A stretch of 60,909 nt of DNA, taken from contig NZ_FNHW01000007.1 of assembly GCF_900103485.1 (NCBI RefSeq), positions 1-60,909 of the forward strand, in the 5' to 3' direction. The position numbers and the translations under genes are program-made. Position 1 is the stretch's first letter, and the number at the start of each line of letters is the position of its first letter. Of this stretch, positions 35,885 through 41,690 are shown piece after piece. The notes beneath the pieces are model-generated. The model saw nothing but the letters and a program-made list of their open reading frames with translations, ran no database searches and was not told where the DNA came from. Source of the stretch: Fictibacillus solisalsi. GTDB lineage: Bacteria > Bacillota > Bacilli > Bacillales > Fictibacillaceae.

Positions 35885-36906
35885 TGAGCGCAGCTCTTTC
35901 TTTTGTTCTTCCCGACGAATTAAATGCCAGCATGCCGCCTGAGCGGCGGGGCATCCGCCGGGATTATGTAAAAATGATGGTGATTGATAAAAAAGAGGGA
36001 ACCACCACTCATTCGCATTTCTACAAACTGGATCATTATTTACAGGCGGGAGATGTTCTTGTGCTGAATGCGAGCCGAACCATACCGGCAGTCCTAAAAG
36101 GAAATTTAGCGGATGGCACAGTGGCCGAGGTACGGCTGGCGCACAAAAAGAGTGATCAAAACTGGGAAGCTCTCATACTTGCTGACGAGGTGAAATCAGG
36201 TGACACCATTCACTTTTCTCCTGTATTGACCGCAACGGTTGTAACAGCAGCAACCGACAGACCCTTCTCCCTACTGGCATTTAACCTGTGCTGCACCGCT
36301 CTTTATGATCAGATCTACCAAATCGGACAGCCAGTACGTTATGAATACATCGAAACACCGTGGGACCTGGATTATTACCAAACGGTATTTGCAACGTCTC
36401 CAGGTTCGGTGGAAATGCCCTCAGCCGGACGTGCATTCAGCTGGGAGCTCCTTTTTCGCCTTCAGAAAAAAGGGGTAAGAATTGAGTATGTTGAACTGCA
36501 TACCGGTTTGAGTTATTTAATGGACGATAAATGGCATCTGGAACCAAGGGAAAACCTGGAGGAGTACAGCATTCCGGAAAAAACGGCGGCAGCAATTCGG
36601 AAGGCCAAAAGAAATGGCCATAAAGTGATCGCAGTGGGAACCACCGTTGTCCGTGCTTTGGAATCAGCTGTTGATACCAAAGGCCATTTAAAAGCAGCCA
36701 GAGGCTGGACCAACTTATATATTACAGGGGCGACGAAGCTTCAAGTGGCAGACGGACTGATTACCGGACTGCATGAACCAGAAGCGAGCCATCTCGACCT
36801 TCTTTCTGCTTTTGTCTCTCCCCAGCACCTTCATGTCTCCTATAAGGAAGCCATCGGTCAAAAATATTTCTGGCATGAGTTCGGCGACATGAATTTGATC
36901 ATTTAG
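35884..36906 (+). CDS. QueA-like protein (SAM:tRNA ribosyltransferase-isomerase homologue)
   Basis: This 340-residue protein aligns along its length with QueA, which transfers the ribose of S-adenosylmethionine to preQ1-modified tRNA. LPDEL, AGDVLVLNASRTIPAVLKG, YQTVFATSPGSVEMPSAGRAF, VELHTGLSYL and GHKVIAVGTTVVRALES correspond to QueA blocks, but the nearly invariant (P)TAGLHFT and LHVGLGTF are changed to PSAGRAFS and LHTGLSYL. It lies away from tgt/ruvB and beside SDR and VOC genes. It may be a paralogue with another substrate. The ATG at 35884 overlaps the SDR stop; a GTG at 35881 is possible. Confidence 0.7.
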   Translation: MSAALSFVLPDELNASMPPERRGIRRDYVKMMVIDKKEGTTTHSHFYKLDHYLQAGDVLVLNASRTIPAVLKGNLADGTVAEVRLAHKKSDQNWEALILADEVKSGDTIHFSPVLTATVVTAATDRPFSLLAFNLCCTALYDQIYQIGQPVRYEYIETPWDLDYYQTVFATSPGSVEMPSAGRAFSWELLFRLQKKGVRIEYVELHTGLSYLMDDKWHLEPRENLEEYSIPEKTAAAIRKAKRNGHKVIAVGTTVVRALESAVDTKGHLKAARGWTNLYITGATKLQVADGLITGLHEPEASHLDLLSAFVSPQHLHVSYKEAIGQKYFWHEFGDMNLII

Positions 36907-36907
36907 A

Positions 36908-37261
36908 ATGAAAACGGCCGGAGTTCATCATTACGGAATTGTCGTCCGAAACCTGGGGGAAGCTGCAGATTTTTATCTAAAGGCATTCAATATGAAGGTT
37001 ATCATTGAAACGGAGTGGGAGGGGGAGACCCTTCTGTTTGTCGGAAATGATGAACAAAAGATTGAACTGATTCAGCAGAAAAAAAATCAGGATGACGGTG
37101 CCCATACCGCTTTTCAAATTGACTGCATAGAGGACATGATTCACCGGTTACAGAACGAGGGTTTTCTCCCTTTGGAGGGGCCGTTTCTTTTAAACAATGG
37201 CTGGAAGACGGTTTTTTATGAACTTCCGGAGGGCGGCTGGGTTGAATTCATTGAAGAATAA
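36908..37261 (+). CDS. VOC-family (glyoxalase-like) protein
   Basis: This 117-residue single-domain protein has the glyoxalase/VOC signature: VHHYGIVVRNLGEAADFYLKAFNMKV at the start and FYELPEGGWVEFIEE at the end, with candidate metal ligands His and two Glu. It begins one base after the QueA-like stop with no clear ribosome binding site, so translation is probably coupled. Substrate unknown. Confidence 0.78.
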   Translation: MKTAGVHHYGIVVRNLGEAADFYLKAFNMKVIIETEWEGETLLFVGNDEQKIELIQQKKNQDDGAHTAFQIDCIEDMIHRLQNEGFLPLEGPFLLNNGWKTVFYELPEGGWVEFIEE

Positions 37262-37268
37262 TAGGAAG

Positions 37269-37296
37269 ACCGGAAGAGGACTTCTTCCGGTTTTTT
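37269..37296 (+). terminator. Terminator after the SDR-QueA-like-VOC operon
   Basis: ACCGGAAGA and TCTTCCGGT form the stem, followed by TTTTTT. Confidence 0.88.
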
Positions 37297-37530
37297 AGAT
37301 GGGAATCACTTTATATTACTTAGTAATACCTAGAATAAATTTGTAAAATCTTTCAAAAGTGATTGCGTCTGCTCCCTTTTTGTTACAATAAGGGATAGGT
37401 ATCCATACCGGCCATAACGCAGTGGGAGTTGGACATAAAGTGCGTGACCATTTTATAAACTATACGGTACAATAAGAAGATAAACCGTTGGAAATTTGTT
37501 TCAATCTTAATGAAGAAAGGTGTGAACCGT

Positions 37531-38079
37531 ATGGAGCAAAAAGAGAAAAAAGGGAATGAACTCTTCAGCTGGATTAAGTCCATTGTCTTTGCTCTTGTTC
37601 TTGTTTATATTATTAAAACTTTTTTCTTCGCGCCTTATATGGTTGAGGGAGCTTCTATGTCTCCAACATTGCATAATCACGATAAACTCTATGTCAACAA
37701 AATCATCTACTCTGTAACCGAGCCGAAAGTCGGTGACATCGTTATCATCAAAGGCGAGGACAAACGCTATGTAAAGCGTGTGATCGGAGTGGAAGGCGAT
37801 ACCATCCAGGTAAAGAAAGATAAGCTTTTGGTCAATGGAAAGCCCGTGAAAGAACCGTATTTGAACCAGAATAAAAAACAGGCAAGAACCCTCGGTGTTT
37901 ATTTAACAGAAGACTTTGGCCCAATTAAAATTCCCAAAGGAAAATGTTTTGTTATGGGGGATAACCGGCTGAACAGTATGGATTCCCGAAACGGCCTTGG
38001 TCTGATTAATATCGATTCCATTGAGGGCAAATCCGAAGTGGTCATTTATCCATTCAAAGACATCCGAAAAACAGATTAA
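37531..38079 (+). CDS. Signal peptidase I
   Basis: This 182-residue membrane serine protease removes signal peptides from secreted proteins. One membrane segment (about residues 15-35) is followed by the catalytic serine S42 (VEGASMSPTL), the lysine K82 (RYVKRVIG) and the GDNRLNSMDSR box. Size and single anchor are those of SipS-type Bacillus enzymes. The ATG at 37531 follows AAAGGTG; one 21 nt upstream lacks a binding site. It may process the propeptide encoded 1 kb downstream, but this is only conjecture. Confidence 0.92.
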   Translation: MEQKEKKGNELFSWIKSIVFALVLVYIIKTFFFAPYMVEGASMSPTLHNHDKLYVNKIIYSVTEPKVGDIVIIKGEDKRYVKRVIGVEGDTIQVKKDKLLVNGKPVKEPYLNQNKKQARTLGVYLTEDFGPIKIPKGKCFVMGDNRLNSMDSRNGLGLINIDSIEGKSEVVIYPFKDIRKTD

Positions 38080-38084
38080 CACGA

Positions 38085-38117
38085 AAAACCTGACCTGACC
38101 GGCCAGGTTTTGTTTTA
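38085..38117 (+). terminator. Probable terminator after the signal peptidase gene
   Basis: AAAACCTG and CAGGTTTT pair around a 11-nt loop, followed by GTTTTAT. Confidence 0.65.
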
Positions 38118-38134
38118 TACAGGAGGAACGGCTA

Positions 38135-38644
38135 ATGGAGAACAAGGTAAGATGTAAATGGAGCACGGAGAGCGAGATGCTTTCCACGTATCATGATAAA
38201 GAATGGGGAGTATCTGTAACAGACGATAACAAATTATTTGAGTGCCTCACACTTGAAATGTTCCAAGCGGGGCTGAGCTGGAGGACAATCCTACATAAAC
38301 GTGAAAATTTCAGAAAAGCCTTTGCCCAATTTGATATTCAGCACGTCAAGGCAATGGCGGAAGACGACATAGCGAGCTTGATGAATAACGAAGGAATTGT
38401 GAGACACAGAAGAAAAATTGAAGCGACGATTGAAAACGCCAGGCGGTGCGATGAACTGATCAAGAAGTATGGCGGATTGGATGCCTTCTTTCAACAATTG
38501 CCGGAGGATACGGCTGAGAAGCAGAAAATCCTTAAACGAACGTTTAAACATTTCGGCTTAACCACAGCGGAAAGCTTTCTGATGGCGACCGGAATGATGC
38601 CCGCGCAGCATGAGGAAAGCTGTTACCTTCACCAAAAAGCCTAA
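38135..38644 (+). CDS. tag: DNA-3-methyladenine glycosylase I
   Basis: This 169-residue base-excision repair enzyme removes 3-methyladenine from alkylated DNA. The Tag pattern is clear: RCKWS near the start, YHDKEWGV, FECLTLEMFQAGLSWRTILHKRENFRKAF and a C-terminal His-x4-Cys-x2-His group (HEESCYLH) that with the N-terminal Cys can bind zinc. It is slightly shorter than the usual 180-190 residues. AGGAGG precedes the ATG. Confidence 0.9.
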   Translation: MENKVRCKWSTESEMLSTYHDKEWGVSVTDDNKLFECLTLEMFQAGLSWRTILHKRENFRKAFAQFDIQHVKAMAEDDIASLMNNEGIVRHRRKIEATIENARRCDELIKKYGGLDAFFQQLPEDTAEKQKILKRTFKHFGLTTAESFLMATGMMPAQHEESCYLHQKA

Positions 38645-38664
38645 AGCTTGCGGCGATACAAACA

Positions 38665-38705
38665 GAACCACTTCCACTGACATACTGTAACAGTGGAGGT
38701 GGTTC
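38665..38705 (+). promoter_or_regulatory. Long inverted repeat covering the ribosome binding site of the L,D-transpeptidase gene
   Basis: GAACCACTTCCACTG pairs with CAGTGGAGGTGGTTC over 15 positions (one G-U) around an 11-nt loop. The 3' arm contains GGAGGTGG, the ribosome binding site. The loop holds CATACTGTA, a perfect fit to the SigK -10 pattern CATANNNTA. It could be a translational switch, an operator, or a chance overlap with a sporulation promoter. Confidence 0.55.
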
Positions 38706-38707
38706 AA

Positions 38708-39043
38708 TTGGCGTATCAAATCTTTATTTCTGTAGGTAAAAAAAGAATGGCAGTTACGCAAAACGGCAGAACCATTAGGCGATATCCTATTGCAGTGGGG
38801 AAGATGCTTACTCCTACGCCTGTGGGAACGTATACAATAATTAATAAGCAGCCTAATCCCGGTGGTCCGTTTGGTGTCATGTGGATGGGGCTTTCCGCCC
38901 CGCACTATGGCATCCATGGCACCAATAACCCATCGTCCATTGGGAAATTCGTCTCAAAAGGATGCATTCGAATGTTCAATAAAGACGTACTCGAACTGTC
39001 CAGAATGGTTCCGCTTGGAACGAGGGTTTATATTGGGAGATAA
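38708..39043 (+). CDS. L,D-transpeptidase (YkuD domain)
   Basis: This 111-residue protein is a bare YkuD domain: TPVGTYTI, then the active-site block [23 protein letters not shown] with H70 and nucleophile C86. These enzymes cross-link peptidoglycan through meso-DAP. There is no signal peptide or LysM domain, unlike most family members, so how it reaches its substrate is unclear. The TTG start at 38708 follows GGAGGTGG; a GTG at 38693 is the alternative. It ends 5 nt before the end of the opposing propeptide gene. Confidence 0.82.
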
Positions 39044-39048
39044 TTAGA

Positions 39049-39303
39049 TCAAGCGTTTGTACTTAAACCAGGAAGTTCATCCATAGCTGCATTAGATCTT
39101 AGTCCAGGAAGTTCGTCCCTAGCTACGCCGCGTGAACTTAAACCAGGAAGTTCATCCATAACAGCAGCAATACTAAGACCAGGAAGTTCATCTCTTGCTA
39201 CTAATCTTGGATTTGGAAGTTCATCTCTCGCAGTATCTTGAGAAAAGCTAAATATTCCCAGAAGGCCTCCCGCGATAAATAAACCAGCTAATATTTTTTT
39301 CAT
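39049..39303 (-). CDS. Secreted signalling propeptide with five DELP repeats (NprX/Phr/PapR-like)
   Basis: This 84-residue protein has an export signal (MKKILAGLFIAGGLLGIFSF, residues 1-20) and then five repeats, each with the core Asp-Glu-Leu-Pro at residues 27, 38, 50, 63 and 75. Four of them read DELPGL, alternately preceded by ARD or MD; the first reads DELPNP. It begins 21 nt after the stop of an NprR/PlcR-type regulator on the same strand, with AAGGTGG as binding site, the standard place for an RRNPP peptide gene. Export, proteolytic release and Opp-dependent re-import of DELPGL-containing peptides are inferred. Most known precursors carry only one or a few copies. Confidence 0.75.
   Translation of the reverse strand: MKKILAGLFIAGGLLGIFSFSQDTARDELPNPRLVARDELPGLSIAAVMDELPGLSSRGVARDELPGLRSNAAMDELPGLSTNA
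39052..39231 (-). repeat. Five degenerate tandem repeats encoding DELP units
   Basis: The plus strand shows GGAAGTTCATC (one copy GGAAGTTCGTC) five times at intervals of 36, 39, 36 and 33 nt. The units differ in length (11-13 codons) and in their flanks, while the DELP(G/N) core is kept, which points to selection on the peptide and not to recent slippage. Confidence 0.85.
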
Positions 39304-39324
39304 TTTAATCCACCTTTTCAATTT

Positions 39325-40578
39325 TTATAGGATATTTTTCCTTGCATTATTAGAAACTCTATAATATAAGCTAGCTTTTTTATATTGTGAATGTTCAAAG
39401 TATAAATCAGCAAGTAATTCTGAATAGGTTGCATAACTTTCAAGTAGATGCTGTTTATCAAAATAAGGAACAGCCTCTTTGGCTAAGTATGATATAAGTT
39501 CATCATGATCTTTTTTAATTTTGAGCATTAAAATTTTGTAATGATATTCATACTCATGATGTGGATATTTATTAAGTATTTTCTGCCCCTGTGTCAACCA
39601 TTTTTCAGAAGAATTATAATCCTCTAACTCATAATATTCACTTGCCATTAAAAAAATCGTAGCGATTTTCGTAACATCTGAAAGGTCTTTTTTGAACAAG
39701 AGGCTCTTTTCCAAGAATTGGATACTTTTTTGGTGTTCATTTCTGCAAGAAGCCAGATATCCTAAGTTATGAAAAATGACACCGGAGGTAAAGTCATCTT
39801 TAAATGTTTTTGAATACTTTAAGGCTTGATTCAAATGGTATTCAGCTTGAACATAATTTCTGACTCTCCTATTACTAATAGCCAAAAGAATTTGACAATC
39901 AGCACTCCTGCTATAATTATATTCTTTATCGAATATATTAATAGCTTTATATGCATAATAATTTACAGAACTAATTCTGAAAATTTGGCCATAACATAAA
40001 GCTAGTTGATAAAAAACTACAGCCCGCTCCATATCTTCGATGTTAATGACAGACATTAACTTTTCTGCTTCCTGGAGGTGGGACAACGCATTTTTATAGT
40101 CCGTTTTAAAGTAATAAAACATTGATAAAATCTGGTTATAATAAAATTTTAACTCTTGAGTTAGTTGCTCCTGTAATTCCTTGATTTTTGATAAAATTAT
40201 GTCTGGATGCGATAAATCCGGCTCATTACTTACTATATATTTTCGTGCTAAAAATAGTTCGTATCTAAGGATGAGTTCGGGCTCAGAAACGTGTTGCATT
40301 TTCTCCTGAACCGTTTCATAGAACTCTTCCGCCTCATCAAAACGGCGGTTCACCATCATCATATTCCACTCATTGAGCATCTCCAGGATCTCGTTGCTGT
40401 CCACTTCCTCGGACGAAATACCCAGCTTGTCACAAAGGAGATTAATAACCTCTTCGCTGGACTTTGCATCCCCTTTCTCAATCTTGCTCAAGTAGGACAC
40501 TGAACAGATTCCCTGAGCCAGTTCTTCCTGGGTTAGGCCTTTGGTTTTTCTATAATATCTTATTCTTTGACCGACCAT
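39325..40578 (-). CDS. RRNPP-family peptide-responsive regulator (HTH + TPR, NprR/PlcR-like)
   Basis: This 417-residue protein has an N-terminal XRE helix-turn-helix (MVGQRIRYYRKTKGLTQEELAQGICSVSYLSKIEKG, residues about 5-60) followed by some eight tetratricopeptide-type helical hairpins (for example ALSHLQEAEKLM, AEYHLNQALKYS, SIQFLEKSLLFKK, ASLYYRVSNNARK). Layout, length and the motif ISVSYLSKIEKG are closest to NprR. Such regulators bind a re-imported peptide in the TPR groove. AAAGGGGG precedes the ATG. The next gene encodes a repeat propeptide, very likely its ligand source. The TPR-coding part is about 30% GC against about 46% for the HTH part. Confidence 0.88.
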   Translation of the reverse strand: MVGQRIRYYRKTKGLTQEELAQGICSVSYLSKIEKGDAKSSEEVINLLCDKLGISSEEVDSNEILEMLNEWNMMMVNRRFDEAEEFYETVQEKMQHVSEPELILRYELFLARKYIVSNEPDLSHPDIILSKIKELQEQLTQELKFYYNQILSMFYYFKTDYKNALSHLQEAEKLMSVINIEDMERAVVFYQLALCYGQIFRISSVNYYAYKAINIFDKEYNYSRSADCQILLAISNRRVRNYVQAEYHLNQALKYSKTFKDDFTSGVIFHNLGYLASCRNEHQKSIQFLEKSLLFKKDLSDVTKIATIFLMASEYYELEDYNSSEKWLTQGQKILNKYPHHEYEYHYKILMLKIKKDHDELISYLAKEAVPYFDKQHLLESYATYSELLADLYFEHSQYKKASLYYRVSNNARKNIL

Positions 40579-40597
40579 ATAATCCCCCTTTCCGAAC

Positions 40598-40658
40598 TTG
40601 GGAAAATTGTCATGCAAACCCCCCATTAATCAAGTACCAATACTACTACTTTTCCCAA
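40598..40658. promoter_or_regulatory. Widely spaced inverted repeat in the regulator promoter region
   Basis: TTGGGAAAA (40598-40606) and TTTTCCCAA (40650-40658) are perfect complements 43 nt apart, flanking a possible minus-strand promoter (TTGATT-N16-GACAAT). They may be two half-sites for a looping regulator such as the adjacent TPR protein. Confidence 0.4.
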
Positions 40659-40802
40659 TACATACCCACAGAAATGTCTGGTAAGATAAATATAACAGAT
40701 AATAATTGCTTTTTGCTAGATTTACCAATTAAAAATAAATTAACAGACTTGTCCGGATGGTAAGAAAGTTATACCGGCCATTTAGAAATGGAGGAGAACA
40801 TA

Positions 40803-41690
40803 ATGGCAAAAATGTTTTCATTATCAGCAAAAAAATCAGACATCAAGGAACTGCTATATGTCTCGAATGATCCAGATACAGCCGGGAACCCTTCGACTCT
40901 GCAATGGAATGATCCACAAACATATATCGATGTTTATAAAGACAACCATAAAAATTACTGGGTGAGCCAGGTTGAAGGAACAAAATCAAGACGCCATACC
41001 ATCTATACTCATAACCATGAAACGAAGAAGCGCCTCTGTCACCCAGTGAACGGACGTCCGAACTTTTATGAATTTGAGGATAGCGTGGTGGTGGCCTGCG
41101 AAGGAGATGGGTCCAAAGGCTCTATCCTGATCTTCTCCAAGGATGATCCCGAGCTTTTGAAGGAGTGGAAAGTGAACGGTTATCTGTGGGAAGTGGAAAA
41201 GAACAACGGTACGCTATATGTTTCCTGTTACATCGTAGAGGAAGATCAGGCTGTCCTCTACGTTATCAAAGGCGACAAGAAAAAAAGGGTAAACCTTGGA
41301 AAAAATATAGCACCGACTGATATTCTCTGTATCGGTGAAGAAGTTTATATCTCTGCTGCGCCCATTTTGAATGGGGATCCAAAGAAAATCATCGTGCTGA
41401 ACAATAAGGAAAAGGTGATCAGGGAGTATCCGCTTAGCATTTCTCCCCGAGCCCTATACCATGTGGAGAACGAAATCATGGTGTATGAACTTGATCTTGC
41501 GACAGGAAAATCGGAAAAGATCGTTTACGTGGATCTTAACACCGGACAGCAAATCACACATACCATACCGAATTCTCAAGTGGTGGAATGCACGAGTTCT
41601 TCACTCTCCCTCTTGCAGCAGGACAGCAAAACCCTGTTCACCTGGGATCACTGCAACCGAAAAATCGTGTGCAGTAAAAAAATATCATAA
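40803..41690 (+). CDS. Hypothetical protein, 295 aa, divergent from the peptide regulator
   Basis: I do not recognise this family. The sequence is beta-rich with repeating short blocks (YWVSQVEGTKSRRHTIY, GSILIFSKDDPELLKEW, TLYVSCYIVEEDQAVLYVIKGD, KIVYVDLNTGQQI, KTLFTWDHCNRKIV) that suggest a beta-propeller-like fold. There is no signal peptide or membrane segment. GGAGGAG precedes the ATG. It diverges from the TPR regulator across a 224-nt region with a long-range inverted repeat, so it may be a target of that peptide system (inference). Confidence 0.7.
   Translation: MAKMFSLSAKKSDIKELLYVSNDPDTAGNPSTLQWNDPQTYIDVYKDNHKNYWVSQVEGTKSRRHTIYTHNHETKKRLCHPVNGRPNFYEFEDSVVVACEGDGSKGSILIFSKDDPELLKEWKVNGYLWEVEKNNGTLYVSCYIVEEDQAVLYVIKGDKKKRVNLGKNIAPTDILCIGEEVYISAAPILNGDPKKIIVLNNKEKVIREYPLSISPRALYHVENEIMVYELDLATGKSEKIVYVDLNTGQQITHTIPNSQVVECTSSSLSLLQQDSKTLFTWDHCNRKIVCSKKIS

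Follow-up and report, generated by a model that had tools for sequence, protein, structure and literature searches.

Among the RRNPPA quorum sensors, the closest described counterpart of the system considered here is NprR-NprX of the B. cereus group. Its receptor, composed of a helix-turn-helix (HTH) domain and nine tetratricopeptide repeats (TPR), is followed downstream by a gene for the secreted precursor of the peptide SSKPDIVG, and extracellular proteases belong to its regulon. Two DNA sites per NprR tetramer were proposed (PMC4970707). AimR of the arbitrium system, also an HTH+TPR receptor, has a 31-bp palindromic operator (PMC6536502). Multi-copy precursors were published for the Rap, NprR, PlcR and AimR systems (PMC9765709, PMC11343458, PMC5199041): NprX repeats have been shown (PMC5199041, text and legend of S11; PMC9765709, table 3), atypically large NprR precursors are repeated in 17 of 17 cases with up to six identical copies (PMC9765709), and Phr with up to eight copies is mentioned (PMC11343458). 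Here a receptor-precursor locus of Fictibacillus solisalsi is described, located in contig NZ_FNHW01000007.1 (60,909 nucleotides; the whole of this stretch is called the window). As judged by sequence comparison, the TPR domain of its regulator and the repeat-containing precursor behave like a cassette that can be exchanged while the HTH domain, the promoter and the flanking DNA remain constant.

An earlier note on this DNA knew of no described system with the repeat in question. This holds for the letters DELP in the literature searched, but the repeat alone is not new since multi-copy precursors, NprX included, have already been published. What goes beyond that note is the occurrence of arrays in most loci of the family, the exchangeable cassette and a bipartite operator. 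Neither an exchange of TPR domain and precursor under a constant HTH domain nor the 61-bp operator was found described in the portion of the literature searched, which included PMC10075063, PMC12700828 and PMC6536502. The searched portion of the matching literature (main text) contains no mention of Fictibacillus.

Regulator and precursor genes

Both genes are on the minus strand of the window and are separated by 21 nt:

40578 (ATG) to 39325 (end of stop), minus strand: regulator gene, 417 aa, HTH+TPR
40393..40578, minus strand: HTH DNA-binding domain, regulator residues 1-62 (Pfam HTH_3, 2.8e-12), near constant family-wide
39328..40392, minus strand: TPR receptor domain, residues 63-417 (TPR_12; NprR 4gpk), hypervariable, NprR-like
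39049..39303 (ATG 39303, stop ending 39049), minus strand: precursor gene, 84 aa
39238..39303, minus strand: signal-peptide-like segment, precursor residues 1-22 (called by eye; weak NCBIfam Phr_nterm match)
39205..39228, minus strand: unit 1, RDELPNPR
39172..39195, minus strand: unit 2, RDELPGLS
39136..39159, minus strand: unit 3, MDELPGLS
39097..39120, minus strand: unit 4, RDELPGLR
39061..39084, minus strand: unit 5, MDELPGLS

The arrangement given in the earlier note, an 84-aa precursor 21 nt behind a 417-aa HTH+TPR regulator on the same strand, is confirmed by the coordinates of the open reading frames (ORFs). The same is true for the five DELP units at residues 27, 38, 50, 63 and 75, four of which read DELPGL and the first DELPNP, and for the letters given there after DELP (NPR, GLS, GLS, GLR and GLS). 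Both prefixes, ARD and MD, are present as claimed, but "alternating" is a loose description of the actual order ARD, ARD, MD, ARD, MD. When the 62-residue mature precursor was shuffled, two DELP appeared in 6 of 200,000 cases and more than two in none, compared with five observed. The Phr_nterm match covers precursor residues 1-23 with E 0.19 and falls short of the Phr_nterm cut-off.

Probable exchange of the TPR domain and the precursor

The comparison set contained one genome per species (loci, genomes and families are designated below by L, G and f numbers). A regulator-like match at E 1e-5 is present in 55 of 60 genomes, many of the matches being paralogues, and a full-length orthologue in 33 of the 34 genomes of the window's bacterial family; both counts include the window genome. 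The other 32 family orthologues are 43–61% identical to the window regulator. In G027 the match covers residues 1-157 only, and its named counterpart L046 stops there at the contig end.

The HTH domain of the window regulator is 98% identical to that of the F. enclensis orthologue (L002) and 97% to that of F. fluitans (L006). TPR segments 121-180 and 301-360 are 25–32% identical to these two orthologues (30% and 25%, respectively, for F. enclensis). At the DNA level the identity between the window and F. enclensis is 87–97% across 36501-39050, drops to 50–59% across 39051-40250 (except one bin of 74%), rises to 81% in the bin at 40251 and reaches 97–100% across 40401-40850. Eight of nine flanking proteins are 91–99% identical to those of F. 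enclensis L042, and the ninth is 85% identical.

Segment-wise DNA comparison covered 16 locus pairs. Ten of these are near-sister pairs in which the types differ (L001/L002, L001/L006, L002/L006, L016/L018, L007/L016, L007/L018, L022/L018, L007/L022, L016/L023 and L026/L028); in each of the other six, both loci belong to one TPR clade. The near-sister pairs are 88–100% identical in all segments outside the cassette (downstream, HTH, promoter and divergent gene), compared with 58–63% in the TPR segment and 49–58% in the precursor. Two pairs demonstrate the opposite relation, with the TPR segment closer than the flanks: L018/L019 (83% against 78% and 74%) and L022/L021 (81% against 77% and 75%). 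L022/L023 and L018/L020 are alike along the entire region.

Divergence of this kind could also arise by fast evolution of the TPR domain and the precursor in place, through an arms race or drift, with no block exchange. TPR receptors are generally fast-evolving, and the window TPR domain is without a close relative in the set, so no donor was found for the window allele. Besides, L007/L012 and L002/L003 share a TPR clade, yet their TPR identity shows no excess over the flanks (77% versus 81% and 78%; 74% versus 74% and 74%). Evolution in place is nevertheless quite unlikely in view of the reciprocal conflict between TPR and flank data: L018 is nearer to L019 in the TPR segment than in the flanks, whereas L018/L016 are 92–100% identical outside the cassette and 60% in the TPR segment. 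Furthermore, flank-defined groups are rejected by TPR data in 4 of 4 cases tested (two of them nested) and TPR-defined groups by flank data in 6 of 6; these tests used quick trees with groups picked after viewing them, so the p-values are inflated. We hold block exchange to be the more plausible account. A further reading is held with moderate confidence: recombination within one reading frame would pass the TPR half together with the multi-copy pheromone gene from species to species, the HTH domain, the 61-bp two-site operator and the protease/Rap regulon staying fixed, and a common public-goods programme would be kept private to dialect groups.

Repeat arrays in the family

A small ORF is found at the end of the regulator gene in all 33 family loci. 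Its chosen start is located 3–24 nt past the regulator stop in 31 of them and overlaps the last base in L003 and L004. With a unit defined as x-[DE]-x-x-P (D/E and P are therefore constant by definition), 30 of the 33 precursors contain 3–9 units. The loci without an array are L009 with one unit, L024 with none and L025 with a single match that looks spurious. The 30 arrays have 26 different 7-residue majority cores, e.g. RDELPGL, HDDNPRA, SDNSPGI, FDHTPGP, IDNGPNP and YDENPPM. Homologues lacking DELP, named in the earlier note as a refutation, do occur; they do not refute the pair because most of them have the same layout with different D-x-x-P cores. The unit is preceded by A in 71% of cases (weighted per locus), which is a plausible cutting place.

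Variation of the peptide core tracks that of the TPR domain, judging by the correlation of their distances: r is 0.63, or 0.58 given the flanks, in the full set, and 0.76, or 0.73 given the flanks, for the 22 loci nearest the window. Once the TPR domain is accounted for, the flanks contribute nothing to the core distance in the full set (-0.17) and only slightly in the 22-locus subset (0.27, p 0.005). With at least two units in 30 of 33 loci and core letters covarying with the TPR domain, the peptide-signalling pair with a multi-copy precursor proposed in the earlier note is supported.

It might be argued that the repeats belong to a secreted peptide with a structural or antimicrobial role and that the regulator senses something else. 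Secreted small repeat proteins do exist, the cleavage and binding of the precursor are our inference, and three loci have no array. This is highly improbable given the tight spacing of the two genes, the covariation of core and TPR domain over and above that with the flanks, the divergence of the precursor along with the TPR domain, and the precedent of NprR.

The earlier note also suggested combinatorial signalling, in which RDELP and MDELP units, with GLS, GLR or NPR tails, would be two or more ligands of different affinities. Among the window units, position 0 is either R or M and the letters behind the core vary too, and Phr3T gives two pheromones of different affinity (PMC11343458). Other arrays are mixed as well: L010 (EDNPQP/ELNPRP), L021-L023 (NNPG/NNPS), L002 (three different tails) and L049, in which nine units vary at one core position (EP/DP) and in the last tail letter. 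However, over seven positions two units are on average 0.94 identical if they come from the same gene (402 pairs) and 0.40 if they come from different genes (12,964 pairs; 164 units). Of the four longest arrays, L049 is the only one to vary; L008 (nine units), L015 (eight) and L016 (nine) are uniform across the eight listed residues. The idea is thus not supported, although some arrays, including that of the window, show mixed letters outside the core, and we rate it as unlikely. Since the units are so alike within a gene, the copies probably do one job.

Several more distant regulators have a single related end resembling HPDP or HPPP (L053, L056, L058 and L063). Others are without a clear precursor, but repeats are present in L054 (six HESHPDP) and L082 (three DELYPDP). 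L156 (G096, family f21) is an orthologue whose precursor contains three HEKFPES units and which has a 62-bp inverted-arm element. In L072 (G010:C7:897647-902217) a precursor of 143 aa stands behind a Rap-like gene; it contains nine HDGIIKDS units, and in eight of these the tails PAKL and VDLL alternate. L062 (G028:C1:528000-536500) comprises four tandem HTH-TPR regulators, none with a clear precursor behind it; these are possible listeners.

Predicted operator and regulon

Two further elements lie ahead of the regulator gene:

40598..40658, no strand assigned: predicted 61-bp bipartite operator with arms TTGGGAAAA ... TTTTCCCAA, in the interval separating the regulator from the divergent gene, 19 nt upstream of the ATG of the former
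40788..41690, plus strand: divergent gene, 300 aa, no Pfam match, predicted regulon member

The operator pattern TTGGGAAA-N45-TTTCCCAA (61 bp) is present with 8-bp arms in 33 of 33 family promoters and with longer arms in 32, L025 (G001:C5:60912) being altered in the ninth base of one arm. In the aligned promoters it ends 18–20 nt ahead of the regulator start in 32 of 33 loci. When any gap of 34–62 was allowed, the 8-bp-arm pattern gave 197 sites in the 34 family genomes (2–9 each), a sum that includes paralogue-type variants, versus 4 in the reversed control. The site length is 59–62 bp in 39 of 40 sites from six genomes, self sites included and 50–78 bp allowed. Sites occur in 113 of 397 genomes of the order. 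Counts above two come chiefly from the window's family and from f21, f4 and f11; elsewhere the counts are mostly near control level.

Four exact sites were found in the window genome, one being the regulator's own promoter. The second is 72 nt before the start of an M4 thermolysin-like protease gene, the third is 58 nt from a Rap-like gene with a 241-aa gene on the opposite side, and the fourth is at a DJ-1/PfpI gene adjacent to one for a solute-binding protein (92 and 132 nt). With two mismatches permitted there are 11 sites versus 2 in the control; only the four exact ones were used. In 11 family genomes, 46 non-self sites (a subset of the 197, many mutually orthologous) were read, with targets identified by Pfam or by BLAST to a Pfam-tested protein: peptidase genes (M4, S8, M10, M12 and C92) account for 15 of them, Rap-like genes for 10, DJ-1/PfpI genes for 7, PhoX genes for 3 and other or unclear ones for 11. 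G053, from another family, has seven sites. One M4 and two S8 protease genes account for three of them, and a fourth is at a homologue of the divergent gene that does not adjoin the regulator. This homologue is 33% identical and has its own site 100 nt upstream, elsewhere in the genome. In the window's family the divergent gene adjoins the regulator in all 33 loci.

A paralogous HTH-TPR regulator (L059 and L114) has its own 59-bp operator variant with C after the arm (TTGGGAAAC...GTTTCCCAA). A scan of the region for promoters and terminators was uninformative (10 promoter-like sites versus 7.2 expected).

The element might be bound by another regulator, such as a paralogous HTH-TPR protein, with the proteases outside the regulon of the one described here. 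HTH-TPR paralogues are present in the genome, that of L059/L114 with its related site, and the f4 and f11 regulators are only 32–33% identical, yet there are 2–6 sites each in these families, mostly of 60 bp. We nevertheless find this improbable, as the site stands at the same distance in 33 of 33 regulator promoters and is found 2–9 times in all 34 family genomes as well as in f21 genomes, while most other genomes of the order have none or one, near control. Close orthologues of the regulator are present in both f21 genomes examined for it (G053 and G096).

No published NprR box or other counterpart of the operator was found in the portion of the openly licensed literature covered, including PMC4970707, PMC3325205, PMC5641580 and PMC7756075. 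Relatives of the regulator were sought in five large-genome f30/f45 members and G096 and gave matches in four of the six, none in f45. The four f30 matches that were read are beside long ORFs and without the 61-bp operator, so generality to B. cereus NprR is not supported.

Relation of the receptor to NprR

In its sequence, fold and tetramer residues the receptor resembles NprR. NprR (4gpk) is the closest solved relative by sequence (E 4.5e-40 with the family profile), and the NprR part of the "NprR/PlcR-type" assignment in the earlier note is borne out while the PlcR part is not. HTH_3 and TPR_12 matches, 18 helices from residue 61 onward in the structure model and the adjacent downstream precursor gene, its export judged by eye, fit a nine-TPR receptor with its signal. 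The positions of NprR residues were assigned by hand from the profile alignment. Tetramer residue Y223 of NprR corresponds to Y220 in 33/33 loci, and F225 to position 222, which is Y in 24/33 and F in 9/33. The NprX-contact residues R126, H201, Y165, D309 and R343 are not kept (N118, Q198, T159, A306 and P339 in the window) and are variable across the family; since they set specificity, they were not treated as defining membership. Among the Spo0F-binding positions, D107 corresponds to D/E at residue 99 in 28/33 loci, Y118 is L in 19/33 and Y in 3/33, E188 corresponds to E184 or D182 depending on the gap, and Y223 is the invariant Y220.

The PlcR receptor has five TPR and about 285 aa. A PlcR-PapR type was rejected for the window regulator with its 417 aa and 18 TPR-region helices, and a Rap-Phr type, where no HTH domain is expected, for its HTH_3 match. 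The likeness to PapR (ADLPFEF as given in the earlier note) is confined to LP with an acid before it. A scan of 355 columns for specificity residues singled out residue 148 as the best, with asparagine present in 5 of 5 LP-core loci, which represent four lineages, and in 2 of the 25 remaining loci. It also produced a single mutual-information value, 1.42, just above the 95% null maximum of 1.35, with ancestry not controlled; both results are leads only.

Proposed mechanism and comparison with known systems

Pairing, arrays, exchange and the shared operator-like element are demonstrated at the level of sequence. The locus likely represents an NprR-type quorum sensor of secreted proteases, the dialect of which is swapped while the regulon stays. 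The precursor, judging by its N-terminus, would be exported and cut by extracellular proteases between the D-x-x-P units, giving several copies of one pheromone of ~7–8 residues. This would be re-imported through an oligopeptide permease (seven OppA-like genes are present in the genome) and bind the TPR domain. By analogy with NprR-NprX, the peptide-bound regulator may form a tetramer on two half-sites about 52 bp apart. The regulon is predicted to take in the genes for secreted proteases, for Rap-like and DJ-1/PfpI proteins and for PhoX, together with the divergent 300-aa gene and the regulator's own promoter. The array copies, kept alike, would raise the pheromone yield, and the TPR domain with the precursor would be replaced as a block between lineages, leaving the HTH domain, operator and regulon unchanged. 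NprB has a role in PapR maturation; it is possible that a feedback loop operates here, in which the controlled M4 protease cuts the precursor itself.

A type I signal peptidase gene is located ~1 kb from the precursor (37510-38079). Among the 15 named loci with 3-kb flanks (L031-L045), 14 have this gene in synteny.

The receptor architecture, downstream secreted precursor, conserved tetramer residues and extracellular protease regulon (predicted here from operator sites) are shared with NprR-NprX. The differences are the multi-copy arrays of D-x-x-P cores in place of SSKPDIVG, the contact residues that are not kept, the swapping of TPR domain and precursor under a constant HTH domain, and the defined 61-bp operator. 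Several predicted-pheromone copies per precursor are also known for NprX, Phr, PapR and AimP, but here they occur in 30 of 33 loci of one family, with 3–9 copies alike per gene and 26 core variants. With AimR-AimP the system shares the HTH+TPR receptor and a long palindromic operator (predicted here). ComQXPA and agr pherotype loci likewise combine a constant output module and flanks with a variable sensor and signal exchanged between lineages. In contrast to them, the present receptor is a single cytoplasmic protein, the HTH and TPR domains of which have different histories, and the precursor is multi-copy.

Because the regulon stays while the TPR domain and precursor are swapped, relatives would run the same programme in different dialects. 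The analysis supplies a DNA-site prediction for an NprR-type regulator and a natural set of ~26 pheromone variants, each with its receptor, that share one backbone and for which both an operator and a readout are predicted. Peptide specificity, receptor-signal co-evolution and the purpose of multi-copy precursors may thereby become testable by TPR swaps on one HTH domain.
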